Shown piece after piece: positions 25,085 through 34,737 of a stretch of DNA of 34,737 nt (positions within the stretch are counted from its first letter, which is position 1; each line of letters opens with the position of its first letter). A program made the position numbers and the translations under genes. The notes under the pieces were generated by a model. It did not search any database. It was not told the origin of the DNA and saw nothing but the letters and a program-made list of their open reading frames with translations. Origin of the DNA: Thiothrix sp. (GTDB lineage: Bacteria; Pseudomonadota; Gammaproteobacteria; Thiotrichales; Thiotrichaceae); NCBI GenBank assembly GCA_020442915.1, contig JAGRJD010000111.1:1-34737 (forward strand). The letters run 5' to 3'.

Positions 25085-26014
25085 TCAGTATTCCGCCATT
25101 TCCTTCACGTGCACCGTGACACTGCGGGCCAGTGAGGACAGGTCATAGCCGCCTTCCAGGCAGGATACCAGCCGTCCCTGACCGTATTTTGCGGAGATTT
25201 CACACAGCTTGCGCGTGATCCAGGTATAATCCGCCTCCACCAGCCCGAATCCACCCATTTCGTCTTCCAGATGGGAATCGAAACCGGCAGAAACCATGAT
25301 CAGCTCTGGCCTGAAATCATGCAGGCGCGGCAGCCAGTGCTGTTCCACCTGAGCCCGCCATTCAGGACCACGGGTACCGGCACGCATGGGTAGGTTGACA
25401 ACATTCGGATAGTGGCTGTCGGCACCGCAGTAAGGGTAGTAGGGGTGCTGAAAAGAAGAGCAGAACAGGATGCGCGGGTCATTGCGCACGATTTCTTCCG
25501 TGCCGTCCCCGTGGTGGACATCAAAGTCAATAATCGCCACCCGCTTGAGGCCGTGCTGCTCCAGGGCATGCAGGCAGCCGATGGCCACATTGTTGAAGAT
25601 GCAGAAGCCGGCGGCACCGCTGCGCCCGGCATGGTGTCCGGGAGGGCGGATGGCACAGAAGACATTGCGGTGCTGCTGTTTCATGACCATGTCGACTCCC
25701 ATGACGGCAGCGCCTGCTGCGTGCAGGGCGGCAGAGAGGGAGTAGCGGTTCATGCCGGTATCACCATCCAGCAGGATGGCGTCCTGCCCCTGGGGCGCGC
25801 TGTCGAACACGCGTTGAACATACGCGGGCGCATGGGCGCGCTCCAGCTGTTCACGGCTGGCGGGATCGGCATCATAATGCCGGATGATCCAGTCCACGCC
25901 GGAGCTGATCAGGCGGTCGGTGATGGCACCGATACGCTTGGGGGATTCGGGGTGATACGGGTCGCCATTTTCATGAAAAATGCAATCGGTATGGCTGATC
26001 AATGCAGTTGTCAT
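25085..26014 (-). CDS. Class II histone-deacetylase-like hydrolase (AcuC/acetylpolyamine amidohydrolase superfamily)
   Basis: The enzyme should remove acyl groups from lysine side chains or polyamines using zinc. I start at the ATG at 26014 (309 residues), because MTTALISHTDCIFHENGDPYHPESPKR is the conserved beginning; about 49 upstream in-frame residues are unlike the family. RPPGHHAG, IIDFDVHHGDGTEEI (catalytic and zinc-binding Asp/His), SAGFDSHLEDEMGGFGL (third zinc ligand) and CLEGGYDLSSLA are all present. The proton-relay His pair is intact, so activity is expected. It is divergent from a Pat-like acetyltransferase with 145 bases between the starts, which suggests the two act on related acylated proteins. 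The true substrate cannot be read from the sequence. Confidence 0.88.
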   Translation of the reverse strand: MTTALISHTDCIFHENGDPYHPESPKRIGAITDRLISSGVDWIIRHYDADPASREQLERAHAPAYVQRVFDSAPQGQDAILLDGDTGMNRYSLSAALHAAGAAVMGVDMVMKQQHRNVFCAIRPPGHHAGRSGAAGFCIFNNVAIGCLHALEQHGLKRVAIIDFDVHHGDGTEEIVRNDPRILFCSSFQHPYYPYCGADSHYPNVVNLPMRAGTRGPEWRAQVEQHWLPRLHDFRPELIMVSAGFDSHLEDEMGGFGLVEADYTWITRKLCEISAKYGQGRLVSCLEGGYDLSSLARSVTVHVKEMAEY

Positions 26015-26035
26015 CGTATTTGTCTGGAGAGTGTG

Positions 26036-26055
26036 TATAATATGGTGCAATGCAC
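26036..26055. promoter_or_regulatory. Candidate promoter and operator in the deacetylase/acetyltransferase divergent gap
   Basis: TATAAT at 26036-26041 is a -10 candidate for the acetyltransferase gene. Immediately after it lies GTGCA-A-TGCAC (26045-26055), a perfect inverted repeat around one base. This would cover the start of transcription and could also affect the divergent gene. The -35 region is weak, and no regulator can be assigned. Confidence 0.4.
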
Positions 26056-26067
26056 AAAAAAATGAGG

Positions 26068-26132
26068 CCAGCTTTCGTCTGCGGCGAGTGCTTGTAGTCA
26101 GGTTTCCGCCTGTCGACTCCTCCGGAAGCTGG
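26068..26132 (+). other. Possible stem in the acetyltransferase 5' leader
   Basis: CCAGCTT (26068-26074) and AAGCTGG (26126-26132) are perfect inverted repeats, extendable by two G-U pairs. They would close a stem over about 50 bases that contains a smaller CAGG/CCTG hairpin. If transcription starts near 26048, this lies in a leader of about 110 bases ending at AGAGG and the ATG at 26160. Confidence 0.3.
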
Positions 26133-26159
26133 TTATCAACCATGATAGAGGTTTTAAAC

Positions 26160-28856
26160 ATGGGGCACCACTATTTGCATCAGTTCCTGTCCCCCCGGTC
26201 GATTGCTGTGGTCGGGGCCAGTGGCAGGGAAGCTTCGGCAGGCACCCGGGTACTGGAGAATATTCTGTCAGCCGGTTTTCAGGGGCCGGTCTATCCGGTC
26301 AATCCCAAATATCAGGAGTTGCAGGGACTGGCCTGCTACGCGACACTTGCCGCCCTGCCGGAACCTGCTGATCTGGTGGTGATCACAACACCGGCTGGCA
26401 CGGTGGCCGGTATTGTGCACGAATGCGGTGAGCTGGGATACCGGCATGTCATCGTGCTGTCCGGTGGATTCAGTGATGCCGGTGCCAGCGGGCGGCAGCT
26501 GGAGCACCGGGTGCAGCAGACCGCACGCCGTTACGGCATTCATCTGCTGGGACCGGACTGCATGGGCGTCATGCGGCCCGAGGCCGGATTGAACGCCACT
26601 TTCAGCCGTAATCAGGCCCGTGACGGCAGTCTGGCCTTGGTCTCGCAATCCGGTGCCATCTGTTCCGCCATACTGGACTGGGCCGAAACCCGCAAACTCG
26701 GATTCTCCGCGGTTATCACCCTGGGTGATGCTGTCGATGTGGATTTCGGGAATGTGCTGGATTTTCTGGCTCTGGATCAGCATACCAAAAGCATCCTGCT
26801 GTATGTGGAAGGCATCCGCAATGCCCGCAGTTTCATGTCCGGCTTGCGTTCGGCCTCGCGCATGAAACCGGTGATCGTGCTGAAGGCAGGCCGTCATGCC
26901 GAGGGTGCGCGGGCTGCGAGTTCGCATACCGGTGCCATCGTGGGCAGCTTTGATGCCTTTGAGGCTGCATTGCAGCGTGCCGGCGTGGTCAGGGTGGATT
27001 CCATTACCCAGCTGTTTACAGCTGCTGAAATTCTGTCGTCCGGCATTCCGGTACGCCGGAATCGTCTGCTGATCATCACCAACGCCGGCGGACCGGGTGT
27101 GATGGCGACGGACCGGGCGGTAGAGCTGGGATTGAGCCTGAGCCCGCTGGGTCCCGAGGTATTGCGCGCACTGGGGCAGGTTCTGCCATTTTCCTGGTCA
27201 CATGGGAATCCGGTCGACATTCTGGGTGATGCGACGCCTGAACGTTATGAACAGGCGCTGGACATCTGCCTGCGCGAGGACAACATGGACGGGGTGCTGG
27301 TCATGCTGACACCGCAGGCCATCACCGATCCCGCTGGTGTGGCTGAAGCCCTGGCCAGGGTGCACCAGCGCAGCAAGAAGCCGATACTGGCCTGCTGGAT
27401 GGGGGGGGCACAGGTGGCCGAGGCACATGCGGTATTCGCTGCCGCCGGTATCCCGTCTTTCTCCACGCCGGAGCCGGCGGTGGAGGCTTTCGCCTACCTG
27501 GCCTGTTTTCACAGCAATCAGAAAATGCTGGTGCAGGTACCGCCGGTACGGGATGAAGCGGAACCGGAGCCGGATATCCGGGGGGCACGCCTGATCATTG
27601 AAAGCGTGCTGGCCGAGGGGCGGCGCATCCTGTCCACCACGGAATCCCGTGCCATTCTGGCCGCTTTCGGCATTCCCTCCACCCGTGCGGTGCTGGTGCG
27701 CAGTCCCACGGAAGCGCTGGTGGCTGCCGAATCGCTGGGCTATCCGGTGGTGATGAAGATCAGTTCCCCGGATGTCGTGCACAAATCGGATGTCAACGGG
27801 GTGCGCATGAACATCAACAGTGCCAATACCGTGCGCAGTGTGTATCAGGAGCTGGTCGAGCGGGTGACACAGGCCCTGCCGGGCGCACGTATTGACGGTG
27901 TGACCGTGGAGGGCATGTATCGGGGTACCCATGTGCGTGAACTCATGATCGGTGTGGCCCGCGATCCGGTTTTTGGGCCCGTCATCAGTTTCGGGGCCGG
28001 AGGCACGGCTGTGGAAATCATGCGTGACCGTGCCGTGGTGCTGCCGCCGCTGAATGAGTACATGATCCGCAAGACCATTGGCAGAACCCGTATCGCCGAC
28101 ATGCTCAAGGCCTTTCGCCAGATGCCGGCAGCCGATGGCCGGGCCCTGGAACAGGTCATGCAGCGGGTATCGGTACTGGTGTGCGAGCTGCCGGAAGTGG
28201 TGGAAATGGACATCAATCCCCTGCTGGCGGACGATAAGGGCGTACTGGCCGTGGATGCCCGCTTTGTGGTGGCACATGCGGACCGGGATCGTCCCTACGG
28301 GCACATGGCGATTCATCCCTATCCCAGCGACCTGGTGCGGCATCATCAGCTGATGGATGGCACCGACATCGTTATCCGGCCCCTCAAACCGGAGGACGCG
28401 GCACTGGAGCAGCAGTTCGTGCGCAACCTGTCCGGGGAGTCACGCTACATGCGCTTCATGCAATCCCTGCGCGAGCTGACGCCGGATATGCTGGTGCGCC
28501 TGACCCAGATTGATTATGACCGCGAGATGGCGTTTATCGCCCTGGTGCGCAATGGGGATCCGGCGGGAGGGGACCTGGAGATCGGGGTGTCGCGGATCGC
28601 CACCCTGCCGGATGGACAGGGGTGCGAGTTTGCGCTGGTTGTGGGGGATGCCTGGCGTAACCGGGGCATGGGCGGGCTGTTGATGCAGGTCATCATTGAT
28701 CTGGCACGTAACAAGGGCCTGCATTACATCACCGGTGACGTGCTGGCCGAAAACAGTCCCATGCTCAACCTGATGCGCCGGCTCGGGTTTGTGGCCGAAC
28801 ACAGCCGGCTGGAGCCGGGTGTGGTTGTGGTGACCCGGCATCTGGTGAGCAGTTAG
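26160..28856 (+). CDS. Pat-like protein: NDP-forming acyl-CoA ligase domain fused to a GNAT acetyltransferase
   Basis: The 898-residue protein joins three parts. Residues 1-~460 are the CoA-binding Rossmann and succinyl-CoA-ligase-like regions (PRSIAVVGASGREASAG; SSHTGAIVGSFDAF). About 520-740 is an ATP-grasp domain (GYPVVMKISSPDVVHKSD; VEMDINPLLADD). The C-terminal GNAT domain (about 750-898) contains EFALVVGDAWRNRGMGGLL, with the acetyl-CoA loop RNRGMG and a possible catalytic Glu. This is the layout of Pat/PatZ (YfiQ), which acetylates acetyl-CoA synthetase and other proteins; the ligase half there is regulatory. I start at ATG 26160 with AGAGG eight bases upstream; the 60 residues before it in frame are not family-like. 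A deacetylase gene is divergent. Whether the ligase half is active here is unknown. Confidence 0.88.
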   Translation: MGHHYLHQFLSPRSIAVVGASGREASAGTRVLENILSAGFQGPVYPVNPKYQELQGLACYATLAALPEPADLVVITTPAGTVAGIVHECGELGYRHVIVLSGGFSDAGASGRQLEHRVQQTARRYGIHLLGPDCMGVMRPEAGLNATFSRNQARDGSLALVSQSGAICSAILDWAETRKLGFSAVITLGDAVDVDFGNVLDFLALDQHTKSILLYVEGIRNARSFMSGLRSASRMKPVIVLKAGRHAEGARAASSHTGAIVGSFDAFEAALQRAGVVRVDSITQLFTAAEILSSGIPVRRNRLLIITNAGGPGVMATDRAVELGLSLSPLGPEVLRALGQVLPFSWSHGNPVDILGDATPERYEQALDICLREDNMDGVLVMLTPQAITDPAGVAEALARVHQRSKKPILACWMGGAQVAEAHAVFAAAGIPSFSTPEPAVEAFAYLACFHSNQKMLVQVPPVRDEAEPEPDIRGARLIIESVLAEGRRILSTTESRAILAAFGIPSTRAVLVRSPTEALVAAESLGYPVVMKISSPDVVHKSDVNGVRMNINSANTVRSVYQELVERVTQALPGARIDGVTVEGMYRGTHVRELMIGVARDPVFGPVISFGAGGTAVEIMRDRAVVLPPLNEYMIRKTIGRTRIADMLKAFRQMPAADGRALEQVMQRVSVLVCELPEVVEMDINPLLADDKGVLAVDARFVVAHADRDRPYGHMAIHPYPSDLVRHHQLMDGTDIVIRPLKPEDAALEQQFVRNLSGESRYMRFMQSLRELTPDMLVRLTQIDYDREMAFIALVRNGDPAGGDLEIGVSRIATLPDGQGCEFALVVGDAWRNRGMGGLLMQVIIDLARNKGLHYITGDVLAENSPMLNLMRRLGFVAEHSRLEPGVVVVTRHLVSS

Positions 28857-29047: not shown

Positions 29048-30883
29048 ATGCGCACTGGTCTCAAAATGCTGTTGGCCGGGATTATTTTCGGTTTTATGGC
29101 TGTTTTCGCTTTTATTGGGGTAAAAAGCCTGATTAATGACCAGCAGAAAAGTCAGGTCCGGGTTCAGCCGCCGGATATTGAGACCAGTACGATTCTGGGT
29201 CAGTCGGCTCCGGCTGCCGGCAGTACGGAGGGAGCCAATCCTTCGCTGGCTGATCAGGATGCCACGGCAGTGGCAGATGACAGCAAGGTCAGGCCGACCC
29301 TGGTGGGTGAGCCTGATACCCCGGACACGATCAGTGAGCCGGAGAATACGGCCTCCCAGACCCCGCCGGCAGCGGGCGCTGATACCGGCATTGATGCCGG
29401 ACCGGCTGGCACAGGGTCGGCCACGGATCCGGCTGCTAATACCGGCAATGCTGTTGTCAATACGGATACCGACCCGGTGGCAGGTACGACTGCTGCGTCA
29501 CAGGATCAGACTGGCAGCAGCGGGGAGCTGATCGACGAATACGGGGCGCTGGAATTGAGCCTGACCGATCCTGCCGACCCGCAGCGCAAGCCCAGTGCCA
29601 CGTTCATCATTCGTGATGTGCAGGATATGGAAGTGGCCAGCATGGAAAACACCGATTCCGCCACCTTTGACCTGACGCCGGGCATTTATGAGGTCACTGT
29701 GGTGGCTGAAGGTAAAAAGAATGCCCGCATGGTGGAGATTGCAGCAGATCAGGTGCTCAGGGAGCGCTTCGAGCTGCCCAATCCGCCGGTATCCGCAGCC
29801 CCGGAGCAGAGCAGCCTGCCGGTGCCATCAGGGCCGGTTGCCGGTACGTCGGAGCAGCCGGTTTCGACTCCGGTTGTCGCGGCGCCTGATCCGCTGGCAG
29901 CGGATACCGGCCGGGTGAGGGTATTCGTGCGTGCCGGGGGCAGTAATGCGGCGCTGAAGGCCAACGTCTATGTTCAGCAGCCCAACGGGGTGCATGTGGC
30001 CAAGGGCAGTTACGCCGACAATGTGGAATTCACCCTGCCGCCGGGGCGCTACCGCATCACCGCCAAGACCAAGGGCAAGGAGGATGTGGTGCGTGACATC
30101 AATGTCGCTGGGGGGCAGGAGCAGCAGCAGATTATTGTTATGGAGTCGGCAGCTGCGCAGGCTCCCAACCATCCGGCACCACCACCCGAGGGGACCCTGA
30201 ACCTGGTGCTGCGGTCACCACCGGGTGCTGCCGAGGGGCGGGGGCGCTTTGTGGTGACGGATAGTGGGGGACAACGGGTGGCACGTGTGGGTGGGGTTGC
30301 CAATGCCCAGCTCAGGCTGGCGCCTGGCAGCTATGAGGTCATGGCCGTTTATCGCCAGCGCCGGATCACCAAACGCATCACCATTGCCGAGGGGCAGGCC
30401 CGCTCGCTGGATTTTCAGGTCAGCGAATTTGAGGGGGTTCCGCCCGAGCCACCGGCGCGTCCGCCTGCCGGAGGGCAGTCGGCTCCGCAGCAGACGGCAC
30501 AGCAACCCTCACAACCGGCTGCTCAGGTACCGTCCCGGAGCGGCGTGCTGCAACTGATTGCGGTCAATGGGGTGGACCAGCAGCCGCTGCCGGTGAGTTT
30601 TTCGGTGCTGGCCCTGAATGGTCAACTGCTGCGCAACTTTGAGGGGGTGGCATTTGCCGAGCTGAGCATGGCACCCCAGGACGTGCTGGTGAATATTGAT
30701 TACCGCGGCATGCATGGCCAGGAGCGCATCCGCGTGACGCCTGGTGAACCCACCGTGTTTACTTTCACCATCACCCCGAACAACGTGGCCAATCCGGTGG
30801 GACAGCAGCCCCAGCCGCCCCAGTCGCTGGAGGGGCTATTGATGGACCGCCTGCAGCAGGAGCTGCAGCGCCACATGCGCTGA
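29048..30883 (+). CDS. Membrane-anchored protein with four repeated beta-rich modules
   Basis: The 611-residue protein has one N-terminal membrane helix (about residues 7-27) after a short basic start, so the rest is probably periplasmic. Residues 35-160 are a low-complexity Ala/Asp/Thr/Pro linker. Four copies of a module of about 78 residues follow, at roughly 165-243, 288-365, 382-458 and 498-576, separated by Pro/Gln-rich linkers. Each runs: a hydrophobic strand, then a central strand ending in a turn ([64 protein letters not shown]), an Arg-containing strand, and a closing strand ending in F or V. This resembles small immunoglobulin-like or carboxypeptidase-regulatory-like beta-sandwich domains. 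There are no cysteines. The function is unknown. The protein lies between the acetyltransferase and hemL, without an obvious partner. Confidence 0.75.
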
Positions 30884-32284: not shown

Positions 32285-33553
32285 ATGTATCGTCAATGCC
32301 TGACCATCATCGGGCTGGTCTGCTACCTGTTCTGCAGTTTTTCTGCCCGTGCCGAAACACGCTCAAGCAGCCTTTATAACGAGGTGGAAAAGTCCATTTA
32401 TCAGGTCAGGGTGATCAACCACAAAACCGGCAACAAGAGCGTGATTGGTTCAGGGTTTGTGGTCGCCCGTCCGGATATCATGGCGACCAATTACCATGTG
32501 GTCAGCACTTATACCAATGACCCGGAAACCTTCAGCATGAATTACCTTTCCACCACAGGGGAAACCGGTCCCCTGTATCTGGTGGATGTGGATGTTCTGC
32601 ATGATCTGGCCATTCTCAAGGCGGATGCTCCATTGGGCAAGCCCCTGAAAACCAGTGTCATTCCGGAAAAGGGGGCGACCCTGTATTCGCTGGGAAATCC
32701 GCTGGATCTGGGGTTCTCGATCGTGACCGGAACCAACAACGGGATGGTGCAGAACAGTGAGGACAACAACATCCTGTTTTCCGGGAACCTGAATTCGGGC
32801 ATGAGTGGCGGGCCGGCGCTGAATGAGTCCGGCGAGGTGATCGGCATCAATGTGGCCACGGCAGGCAATGATGTCAGTTTTCTGGTTTCGGTCCAGTACC
32901 TGAACATCCTGCTGGAGCGCCTGCGCCTGAGGGGGTTCAGCCCGGCGGAGGATCTGCATGGCAGCATTACCCGCCAGTTGCATGACAACAGTATCGAGCG
33001 CCTGCTGCGGCTGCAGGACAATGACTGGAAACGTGTCCAGATCGGCCAGTTTGAAGTCCCCGGCAGCATGGACCGCACCATCAGCTGCTGGGACAGCAGT
33101 GATGAAGCCAGGGGTAACAGCCTGATGGGAATTTATGCTGCGACCTGCTCCAATGAGCTGCGCATTTTTCTGGATGAAAAGCTGAGTATCGGCGAGATGC
33201 GCTATCAGTATACCTGGTATGAATCCGATGGCATGATTTCGCCCCGCTTTTATCGTCAGTATGAGTATCAGAATGCCAGTGGCCTGATTAATACGACTGC
33301 AGACAAGAAAAATGTGAGCCGCTTTGAGTGCCGTACCCGTTTTGTGGCTATTTCCGGGCATGATTTCAAAATGACGGTGTGCCGGCGTGATTACCTGCGC
33401 TATCAGGGCCTGAGTGACGTACTGGTGACGGGGGCCATGGTGGCAGAGCCGAAGGTCGGGCTGATTTTTGATTTTTATCTGGTGGGTACTGATTTTGAGC
33501 AGTCCATCAGGCTGCTCCAGCACATGCTGAAGGGGTTCAAATGGATGCCGTGA
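32285..33553 (+). CDS. Exported trypsin-like serine protease (S1C/Do-like) with a distinct C-terminal domain
   Basis: The 422-residue protein has a Sec signal peptide with likely cleavage after SARA (about residue 23). The protease domain (about 30-215) keeps the chymotrypsin-fold triad: H71 in ATNYHVVS, D107 in VLHDLAILK and S174 in NSGMSGGPALN. The overall pattern is that of HtrA/DegP-like proteases. Unlike those, it has no PDZ domain. Residues 220-422 instead form an unassigned region with several Cys (including SCWDSSD, YAATCSNEL, FECRTRF, TVCRRD) that probably form disulfides. The stop overlaps the next gene (FHA membrane protein) by 13 bases, so the two are translationally coupled. I infer a periplasmic role; the target is unknown. 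Confidence 0.82.
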   Translation: MYRQCLTIIGLVCYLFCSFSARAETRSSSLYNEVEKSIYQVRVINHKTGNKSVIGSGFVVARPDIMATNYHVVSTYTNDPETFSMNYLSTTGETGPLYLVDVDVLHDLAILKADAPLGKPLKTSVIPEKGATLYSLGNPLDLGFSIVTGTNNGMVQNSEDNNILFSGNLNSGMSGGPALNESGEVIGINVATAGNDVSFLVSVQYLNILLERLRLRGFSPAEDLHGSITRQLHDNSIERLLRLQDNDWKRVQIGQFEVPGSMDRTISCWDSSDEARGNSLMGIYAATCSNELRIFLDEKLSIGEMRYQYTWYESDGMISPRFYRQYEYQNASGLINTTADKKNVSRFECRTRFVAISGHDFKMTVCRRDYLRYQGLSDVLVTGAMVAEPKVGLIFDFYLVGTDFEQSIRLLQHMLKGFKWMP

Positions 33554-34536
33554 GCCTGATACTGGAGGTGAAAACCCGCAGCCTGAATCACTATTATCAG
33601 CTTGAGCAGTTTCCGGTCAGGGTCGGGCGTGCACTGGATAATGATATCATTCTGTCGGATACCACGGTATCGCCCCATCACCTTGAAATTGAACAGCTGG
33701 ATGGCTTCAGTCTGCGTGTTCGCAACCTGTCGGGTGAGAACGGCTCGCGCATGAACCGCCGGAGCCTGCGTCAGGATGAGGCTGTCGAGGTCCGGGTCGA
33801 GGCGGATCCGGTCAGCCTGCGACTGGGCAACCGGCAGGTCCGGCTGCTGCGTTCAGACATGGATGTCAGCCGTACCAGTGTGCGCAACTGTTCCGGACTG
33901 TATGCCGTATTCTGTCGTCCGGCCTGGTCCTTGAGCCTGATGGTGCTGACCCTGCTGGCGTTTCTGTACGAAAACTACCTTCAGGCCCGTCTGGCCAAGG
34001 ACATTACGTTTTACCTGGGCGGGCTGATGCCTTACCTGCTGGGGCTGGTGGCCCTGACGCTGGTGATTGCCGGGATCAGCCGCCTGTCCACCCAGCGCTG
34101 GGAGGTCGGGCCGGCCCTGAGCCTGGCTTCGCTGTTCATGATCGGCCCGCATGTGCTGGGTGAGATAGGACATTTCTTGAATTACCTGCTGACCGCCGAC
34201 TGGCCACTGGAAGGGCTGATGCTGGTCAACAATTTTCTGCTGTTGCCGGTGGTGCTCTATGGTTACATCCGGCTGGTGCATCATGCCGAGTCCTGGTCGG
34301 CGCTGGGCGTGGCCCTGCTGTTCAGCACGCCGATGCTGGTCTATCAGATGTCGGACCTGATGGACCAGATTGCCCTGGATACCGAGTTTACCGGTGAAGC
34401 CGATTTCAACCGTACCCTCAGTTCGCTGGATATCCGCCTGCAGCCGAGTATCAGTATTGATGATTTTGTAGCGATGGCCACCCAGGAGCTTGGACCATTC
34501 ACGGCTGAGTCCGATGCTGCGGACGAGAGCGAGTAG
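33541..34536 (+). CDS. FHA-domain multi-pass inner-membrane protein
   Basis: The 331-residue protein starts with a cytoplasmic FHA phosphothreonine-binding domain (about residues 15-100). The motif VGRALDNDIIL has the conserved Gly-Arg, SPHHLEIE has the Ser and His of the SxxH element, and ENGSRMN has the Asn-Gly. The Gly-Arg pair, Ser and Asn that contact phosphothreonine are therefore kept. From about residue 127 to 270 there are about five membrane helices, then a short cytoplasmic or periplasmic tail of 60 residues. No kinase domain is present. The overlap with the preceding protease gene suggests a physical or functional pair. The gene is followed after 21 bases by an IS5-type end. The signal read by the FHA domain is not known. 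Confidence 0.82.
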   Translation: MDAVSLILEVKTRSLNHYYQLEQFPVRVGRALDNDIILSDTTVSPHHLEIEQLDGFSLRVRNLSGENGSRMNRRSLRQDEAVEVRVEADPVSLRLGNRQVRLLRSDMDVSRTSVRNCSGLYAVFCRPAWSLSLMVLTLLAFLYENYLQARLAKDITFYLGGLMPYLLGLVALTLVIAGISRLSTQRWEVGPALSLASLFMIGPHVLGEIGHFLNYLLTADWPLEGLMLVNNFLLLPVVLYGYIRLVHHAESWSALGVALLFSTPMLVYQMSDLMDQIALDTEFTGEADFNRTLSSLDIRLQPSISIDDFVAMATQELGPFTAESDAADESE

Positions 34537-34557: not shown

Positions 34558-34737
34558 GAGCCTGTTTACGATCTTCTGAGTATCAGCGCCAGAAAAGCCA
34601 GATGGATGAACGGCAAACTGCTATTGAGTTGACGTTCGCAGTTCTTCCATAGTCTTCGGTTCTTCTCCAGCCAGGCAAAGCTGCGCTCAACAATCCAGCG
34701 CTTGGGCATGACCTTGAAGGTATGCCGTTCACTGCGC
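34558..34737 (-). mobile_element. Right-hand end of an IS5-family insertion sequence, continuing beyond the window
   Basis: The region contains the 3' part of an IS5-type transposase gene on the minus strand. A terminal-repeat-like GAGCCTGTTTACGATC starts near 34558, just outside the stop codon. The element begins 21 bases after the FHA gene stop; TTA at its edge may be a target duplication. The other end and most of the transposase are beyond the window. Confidence 0.75.
34566..34736 (-). CDS. IS5-family transposase, C-terminal part (partial at window edge)
   Basis: The minus-strand frame running from the right edge to the TAA at 34568-34566 gives 56 residues. It contains [20 protein letters not shown], with the Glu of the DDE catalytic triad and the following Arg/Lys pattern, and then [29 protein letters not shown]. 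This is a typical C-terminus of IS5-family transposases. It is cut by the window edge, so nothing can be said about completeness. It is probably the second frame of a frameshifted transposase in many such elements, but this cannot be seen here. Confidence 0.85.

Follow-up and report, generated by a model that had tools for sequence, protein, structure and literature searches.

A conserved gene pair joining an exported HtrA-like protease to an FHA-domain membrane protein in Thiothrix and other bacteria

The window (the whole stretch of DNA analysed here, 34,737 nt) is an entire contig, C166, of a 4.08-Mb genome assembled in 196 contigs. The genome is Thiolinea-like, and its relatives among named genomes belong to the Thiotrichaceae (Thiothrix, Thiolinea, Cocleimonas and Leucothrix). 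Toward one end of the window, a protease gene overlaps the gene for a membrane protein that we call the partner (Table 1). Directly downstream of the partner gene comes the C-terminal portion of a DDE transposase (34571-34737, minus strand; PF13586, 2.9e-9), with which the contig ends and which probably caused the break. Among the proteins encoded upstream, one of 611 aa (29048-30883, plus strand) combines a membrane segment at its N-terminus with carboxypeptidase-regulatory/PEGA-like domains and is not conserved beside the pair. Another, of 958 aa (25980-28856, plus strand), fuses an ADP-forming acyl-CoA synthetase-like part to a GNAT acetyltransferase and is similar to the Pat/PatZ protein acetyltransferases. 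The first sixty or so residues of this fusion resemble a mis-assigned start.

Table 1. Features of the protease/partner locus, in window coordinates.
Feature	Position	Strand	Basis or remark
Exported HtrA-fold (trypsin-like) serine protease, 422 aa	32285..33553	+	ORF, Pfam, alignment, model
Protease C-terminal domain (residues 222-422)	32948..33550	+	profile, model, Pfam/PDB searches
Stretch upstream of the partner start that is Shine-Dalgarno-like (GGAG/GAGG) in relatives	33523..33537	+	window version CATGCTGAAGGGGTT, weak
Gene overlap of 13 nt, with the partner ATG inside the protease Trp420 codon (A/TGG)	33541..33553	+	
Membrane partner, 331 aa: N-terminal FHA, five membrane helices, conserved C-terminal tail	33541..34536	+	ORF, Pfam, model
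FHA domain with canonical phosphothreonine-binding residues G29, R30, S44, H47, N67	33616..33795	+	Pfam, alignment
Partner tail (residues 275-331), predicted periplasmic	34363..34533	+	alignment, loop charge

The protease consists of a signal peptide (residues 1 to about 24), a protease domain (about 38-216) and the C-terminal domain. Its N-terminus forms a single signal-like helix, and signal-peptide-like N-termini were present in all distant protease relatives examined. Residues 55-188 match Trypsin_2 in Pfam (E 7e-19), and the catalytic triad of H71, D107 and S174 sits in the motifs TNYHVV, LHDLA and GMSGGP. These three residues were invariant across the relatives tested, including 29/29 distant ones, and the motifs were found in the proteases of a further 14/14 relatives. 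In the AlphaFold model (mean pLDDT 88.5), the protease domain matches HtrA-family structures (Deg5, HtrA1 and DegS chains) with Z scores of 24-26. The best fit, to Deg5 (4ic5_A; Z 26.4, rmsd 2.4 over 191 residues), identifies an HtrA-type trypsin fold. No PDZ family matched the protease in Pfam at E values up to 1, and none was matched by the C-terminal domains of 28 relatives. The protease also falls short of the curated HtrA cut-offs (TIGR02037, 51 vs 416 bits; NF041521, 42 vs 450). A first reading of the window, made from the sequence alone, had described an exported trypsin-like protease with an intact triad and no PDZ domain, and this description holds.

Following the protease domain are a helix, a beta-rich core and a final helix that ends at the conserved Trp420. 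This C-terminal domain contains four cysteines (C268, C288, C349 and C366) that are invariant in Thiotrichaceae and in 28/28 complete distant relatives, a pattern that would fit an exported domain with two disulfides; how they would pair we infer. Residues 222-422 of the window protein had no Pfam match, the relatives gave only scattered sub-threshold matches, and a profile search found no sequence match in the PDB. The structure-match list for the protease (VIA-align) spans model residues 18-265 only, and the domain may have a known fold. The same first reading had called this a new, cysteine-containing half of the protein; we agree at the level of sequence matches and make no claim for the fold. 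Nearly all matches to a profile of this domain (A3) lie in open frames long enough to hold a protease domain as well.

The partner begins with an FHA domain (Pfam, residues 26-85; E 8.9e-10, 39.3 bits against a cut-off of 20.7). Its model (pLDDT 87.3) comprises this domain, five long helices and a tail, in agreement with the earlier description of an FHA domain fused to several membrane helices. The FHA part has fold matches to GarA, OdhI and others, and the tail, of about 57 residues, is acidic. The mean number of K+R per loop is 1.9 in loop 2 and 1.7 in loop 4, vs 0.9 in loop 1 and 0.1 in loop 3. Because loops 2 and 4 are positive and loops 1 and 3 and the tail are not, the positive-inside rule predicts that the FHA domain should be cytoplasmic and the tail periplasmic, on the same side as the protease.

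FHA domains bind phosphothreonine. All five canonical residues (Table 1) are invariant in 38/38 Thiotrichaceae partners, and R30, H47 and N67 are all kept in 12/15 partners from other Gammaproteobacteria and in 14/14 from the phylum sample. Outside one family, f149, to which we return below, the phosphate-binding residues are intact in 64/67 partners (26/29 outside Thiotrichaceae). N67, G29, H47 and R30 rank among the most conserved positions of the entire partner. Phosphothreonine binding by this domain is thus a plausible prediction. The source genome encodes a second strong FHA protein on contig C106 (L159:2-589), beside an SLT transglycosylase gene.

Within the same GTDB family, 34 of a further 35 sampled genomes encode an orthologous protease, with 45-65 per cent identity; the only absence is from an incomplete genome (G008). 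The FHA/membrane gene was found in 33 of the 35 and adjoins the protease where contigs allow. Beyond the family, the A3 profile identified the protease C-terminal domain in 22/369 Gammaproteobacteria, in 18/398 genomes of a phylum-wide sample (four of them from two families outside Gammaproteobacteria) and in 12/12 genomes of f149. When each genome contributes one locus, and only loci with more than 600 nt of downstream sequence are used, the membrane partner directly follows the protease in 77/77 testable loci (36/36 from Thiotrichaceae, 15/15 from other Gammaproteobacteria, 14/14 from the phylum sample and 12/12 from f149). Eleven of the f149 partners were recognized by profile and the twelfth (G408) from its helices and tail. 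The sequence-only reading had treated the genes as a coupled module, and the survey bears this out: no separation was seen in the 77 loci, which span more than 20 bacterial families. A profile of the membrane part (A4) matched 5/369 genomes, all of which carry the pair, though it is too insensitive to exclude orphan partners. In Candidatus Thiothrix singaporensis (L092) the partner frame is seemingly interrupted, leaving an open part of 208 aa; the gene may really be disrupted, or the assembly may be wrong.

Neighbourhood clustering of 42 loci identified no third gene common to distant loci. A hemL-type gene upstream of the pair is confined to those Thiotrichaceae loci that are of the Thiothrix/Thiolinea kind. 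Since the protease and partner are all that distant neighbourhoods have in common, the pair persists amid unrelated flanks.

The 13-base overlap reported from the sequence alone is exact, and most relatives share its arrangement. In 69/77 loci the partner start is nested in a near-terminal Trp codon of the protease, taking the last base of the preceding codon and the TG of the Trp codon (mostly NNA TGG). The overlap among these 69 loci is 13 nt in fifty-one cases, 10 nt in ten, 16 nt in seven and 28 nt in one. Trp420 is invariant in Thiotrichaceae and replaced in some loci that have no nested start, and the nested start may be the reason for its invariance. A Shine-Dalgarno match of at least 4 bases precedes the partner start, inside the protease coding sequence, in 52/71 loci. 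When synonymous codons of the same genes were resampled, a mean of 21.8 loci had such a match, with a maximum of 32 in 2000 trials. Kinship among the loci inflates the significance of this excess, which is at the synonymous level and is also seen in distant groups. We read it as selection for coupled translation, which would give the protease and partner a fixed stoichiometry.

Family f149 departs from this picture at one end of the partner. All 12 of its sampled genomes keep the protease, the helices and the tail, yet six have no FHA domain left and another four have one without the key Arg; only the other two retain the residues. No canonical Ser/Thr kinase was found in these 12 genomes: kinase searches were empty in 7/12, and the remaining 5/12 gave only a RamC/LanC-type synthetase or partial, Kdo-kinase-like matches. 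A Ser/Thr kinase is present, by comparison, in 60/60 Thiotrichaceae sampled. The pattern fits a kinase-dependent FHA input that would have decayed after kinase loss, with the contrast coming from one family and being close to a single evolutionary event. As the FHA domain is lost while the protease, helices and tail persist, it is not the core of the unit, and any phospho-input is dispensable.

Three partners with degenerate FHA domains (G235, G394 and G069) occur in genomes that have kinases. At the genome level, kinases are present in 20/22 pair-bearing genomes vs 295/369 overall, which is a weak and unspecific association. The sequence-only reading had also suggested a search for a Ser/Thr kinase or phosphatase nearby; neighbourhood clustering found neither gene conserved near the pair. 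The only clear Ser/Thr kinase of the source genome is on another contig, C180 (L158:6680-7966), and a PP2C_2 phosphatase was not found in that genome. The kinase gene is followed by one resembling the exosortase family (L158:8110-8661), with no link to the pair seen.

The best-supported account is of a conserved, obligate two-protein unit to which the FHA domain would usually add a phosphothreonine-dependent cytoplasmic input. We give a probability of roughly 0.55 to the reading in which the two genes form one functional unit, the protease is held or switched by the partner, and phospho-input arrives through the FHA domain. The protease would be exported via its signal peptide and, once folded in the periplasm, would be a serine protease of the HtrA type, with the PDZ of a usual HtrA replaced by a C-terminal domain that probably bears disulfides. 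The downstream gene would be translated by coupling from the nested start, yielding a partner that crosses the inner membrane with five helices, its FHA domain in the cytoplasm and its tail in the periplasm. Tail and helices may together bind the protease, keeping it at the inner membrane or switching it there. On the other side, the FHA domain would dock a Thr-phosphorylated cytoplasmic protein, the modifying Ser/Thr kinase being encoded elsewhere. Cytoplasmic phosphorylation could then set where or whether proteolysis of a putative periplasmic substrate happens. We prefer this inside-out direction because the conserved core is the protease plus the membrane part and the FHA domain is a removable end. 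The cross-membrane link between phosphorylation and proteolysis proposed in the sequence-only reading is partly supported: an FHA domain inside and a protease outside fit the signal peptides and loop charges, the phosphate-binding residues are widely kept, and FHA decay coincides with the kinase-less family. Against it, no kinase or phosphatase gene is conserved close by, and the dispensability of the FHA domain makes this domain an input and not the core.

That dispensability could also mean that no switching takes place. The membrane protein might be a docking or chaperone subunit that localizes and stabilizes the protease, with the FHA domain only scaffolding it to other proteins; such a subunit could do without its FHA domain, as in f149, and the fixed stoichiometry suggested by coupled translation would suit it too. 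Conservation of N67, G29, H47 and R30 is higher than expected for a passive scaffold, and on balance we think this explanation rather unlikely.

A still less probable direction of signalling is from the outside in. Here the protease would sense an envelope condition and act on or through the partner tail; the resulting change in FHA docking would carry the message to the cytoplasm, in a relay like that of DegS/RseA. HtrA-type proteases such as DegS do start envelope signalling, and the partner tail is conserved and predicted to be periplasmic. However, no cleavage site or second protease was identifiable for such a relay, and FHA loss in f149 would leave it without an output while the rest is kept. 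Finally, we give very little credence to two envelope housekeeping genes being co-inherited without physical interaction, since, for all that many bacterial operons persist without interaction of their products, the flanks here change completely, the two genes stay together throughout more than 20 families, and the nested start and Shine-Dalgarno match are maintained.

If the preferred reading of a partner-controlled protease with phospho-input is correct, the unit may let intracellular signals control protein cutting beyond the inner membrane. The usual view is that control of bacterial envelope proteases comes from outside, through misfolded proteins or PDZ ligands, and the outputs of Hanks-type kinases in Gram-negative bacteria are poorly known. 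A conserved unit of cytoplasmic FHA domain and periplasmic HtrA-like protease would give these kinases a route to the envelope. More tentatively, and with the odds somewhat against it, the pair could represent a general inside-out phospho-signalling device of the Pseudomonadota, running from kinase to FHA domain to five-helix protein to a dedicated periplasmic HtrA-like protease with a previously unrecognized, disulfide-bearing regulatory domain. A route from kinases to the envelope is directly testable, given that the two genes are almost always paired and that kinase-poor f149 has naturally lost FHA domains.

We found no description of a module combining an FHA domain with a trypsin-like or HtrA protease in the open-access literature searched (most subscription papers lay outside the search), which suggests that the pair is an undescribed unit. 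Several known systems resemble parts of it. The mycobacterial membrane-anchored periplasmic protease MarP is likewise trypsin-like, periplasmic and tied to a multi-helix membrane segment. MarP carries its membrane helices in the protease chain itself and has no FHA domain, whereas the window protease has only the one N-terminal signal-like helix and scores 50 bits against the NF033740 cut-off of 250. RsgI9 of Clostridium thermocellum, a signalling protein, also has a further extracytoplasmic domain after its S1C protease domain, and its S1C-NTF2 structure (7sjy) superposes on residues 25-233 of the protease model only, i.e. on the protease part. Unlike the window pair, RsgI9 is an anti-sigma factor in one chain with no FHA partner.

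On the partner side, the YscD/PrgH-type inner-ring proteins of type III secretion systems similarly have an FHA-like cytoplasmic domain in a membrane protein, and the partner narrowly passes the PF16697 cut-off (34.4 vs 33.2 bits). We rejected this assignment, as the partner has five helices and a short tail rather than one helix and periplasmic ring-forming domains, and no third gene is conserved nearby. GarA/OdhI, FhaA (with MviN) and Rv1747 share the FHA fold and phosphothreonine-binding residues of the partner. FhaA and Rv1747 connect Ser/Thr kinases to envelope processes; to our knowledge none of these proteins is paired with a periplasmic protease. HtrA, DegP and DegS (S1C) have the same exported trypsin fold and triad arrangement as the window protease, which differs from them in having no PDZ domain, in its C-terminal domain with four invariant cysteines, and in its obligate FHA/membrane partner gene.
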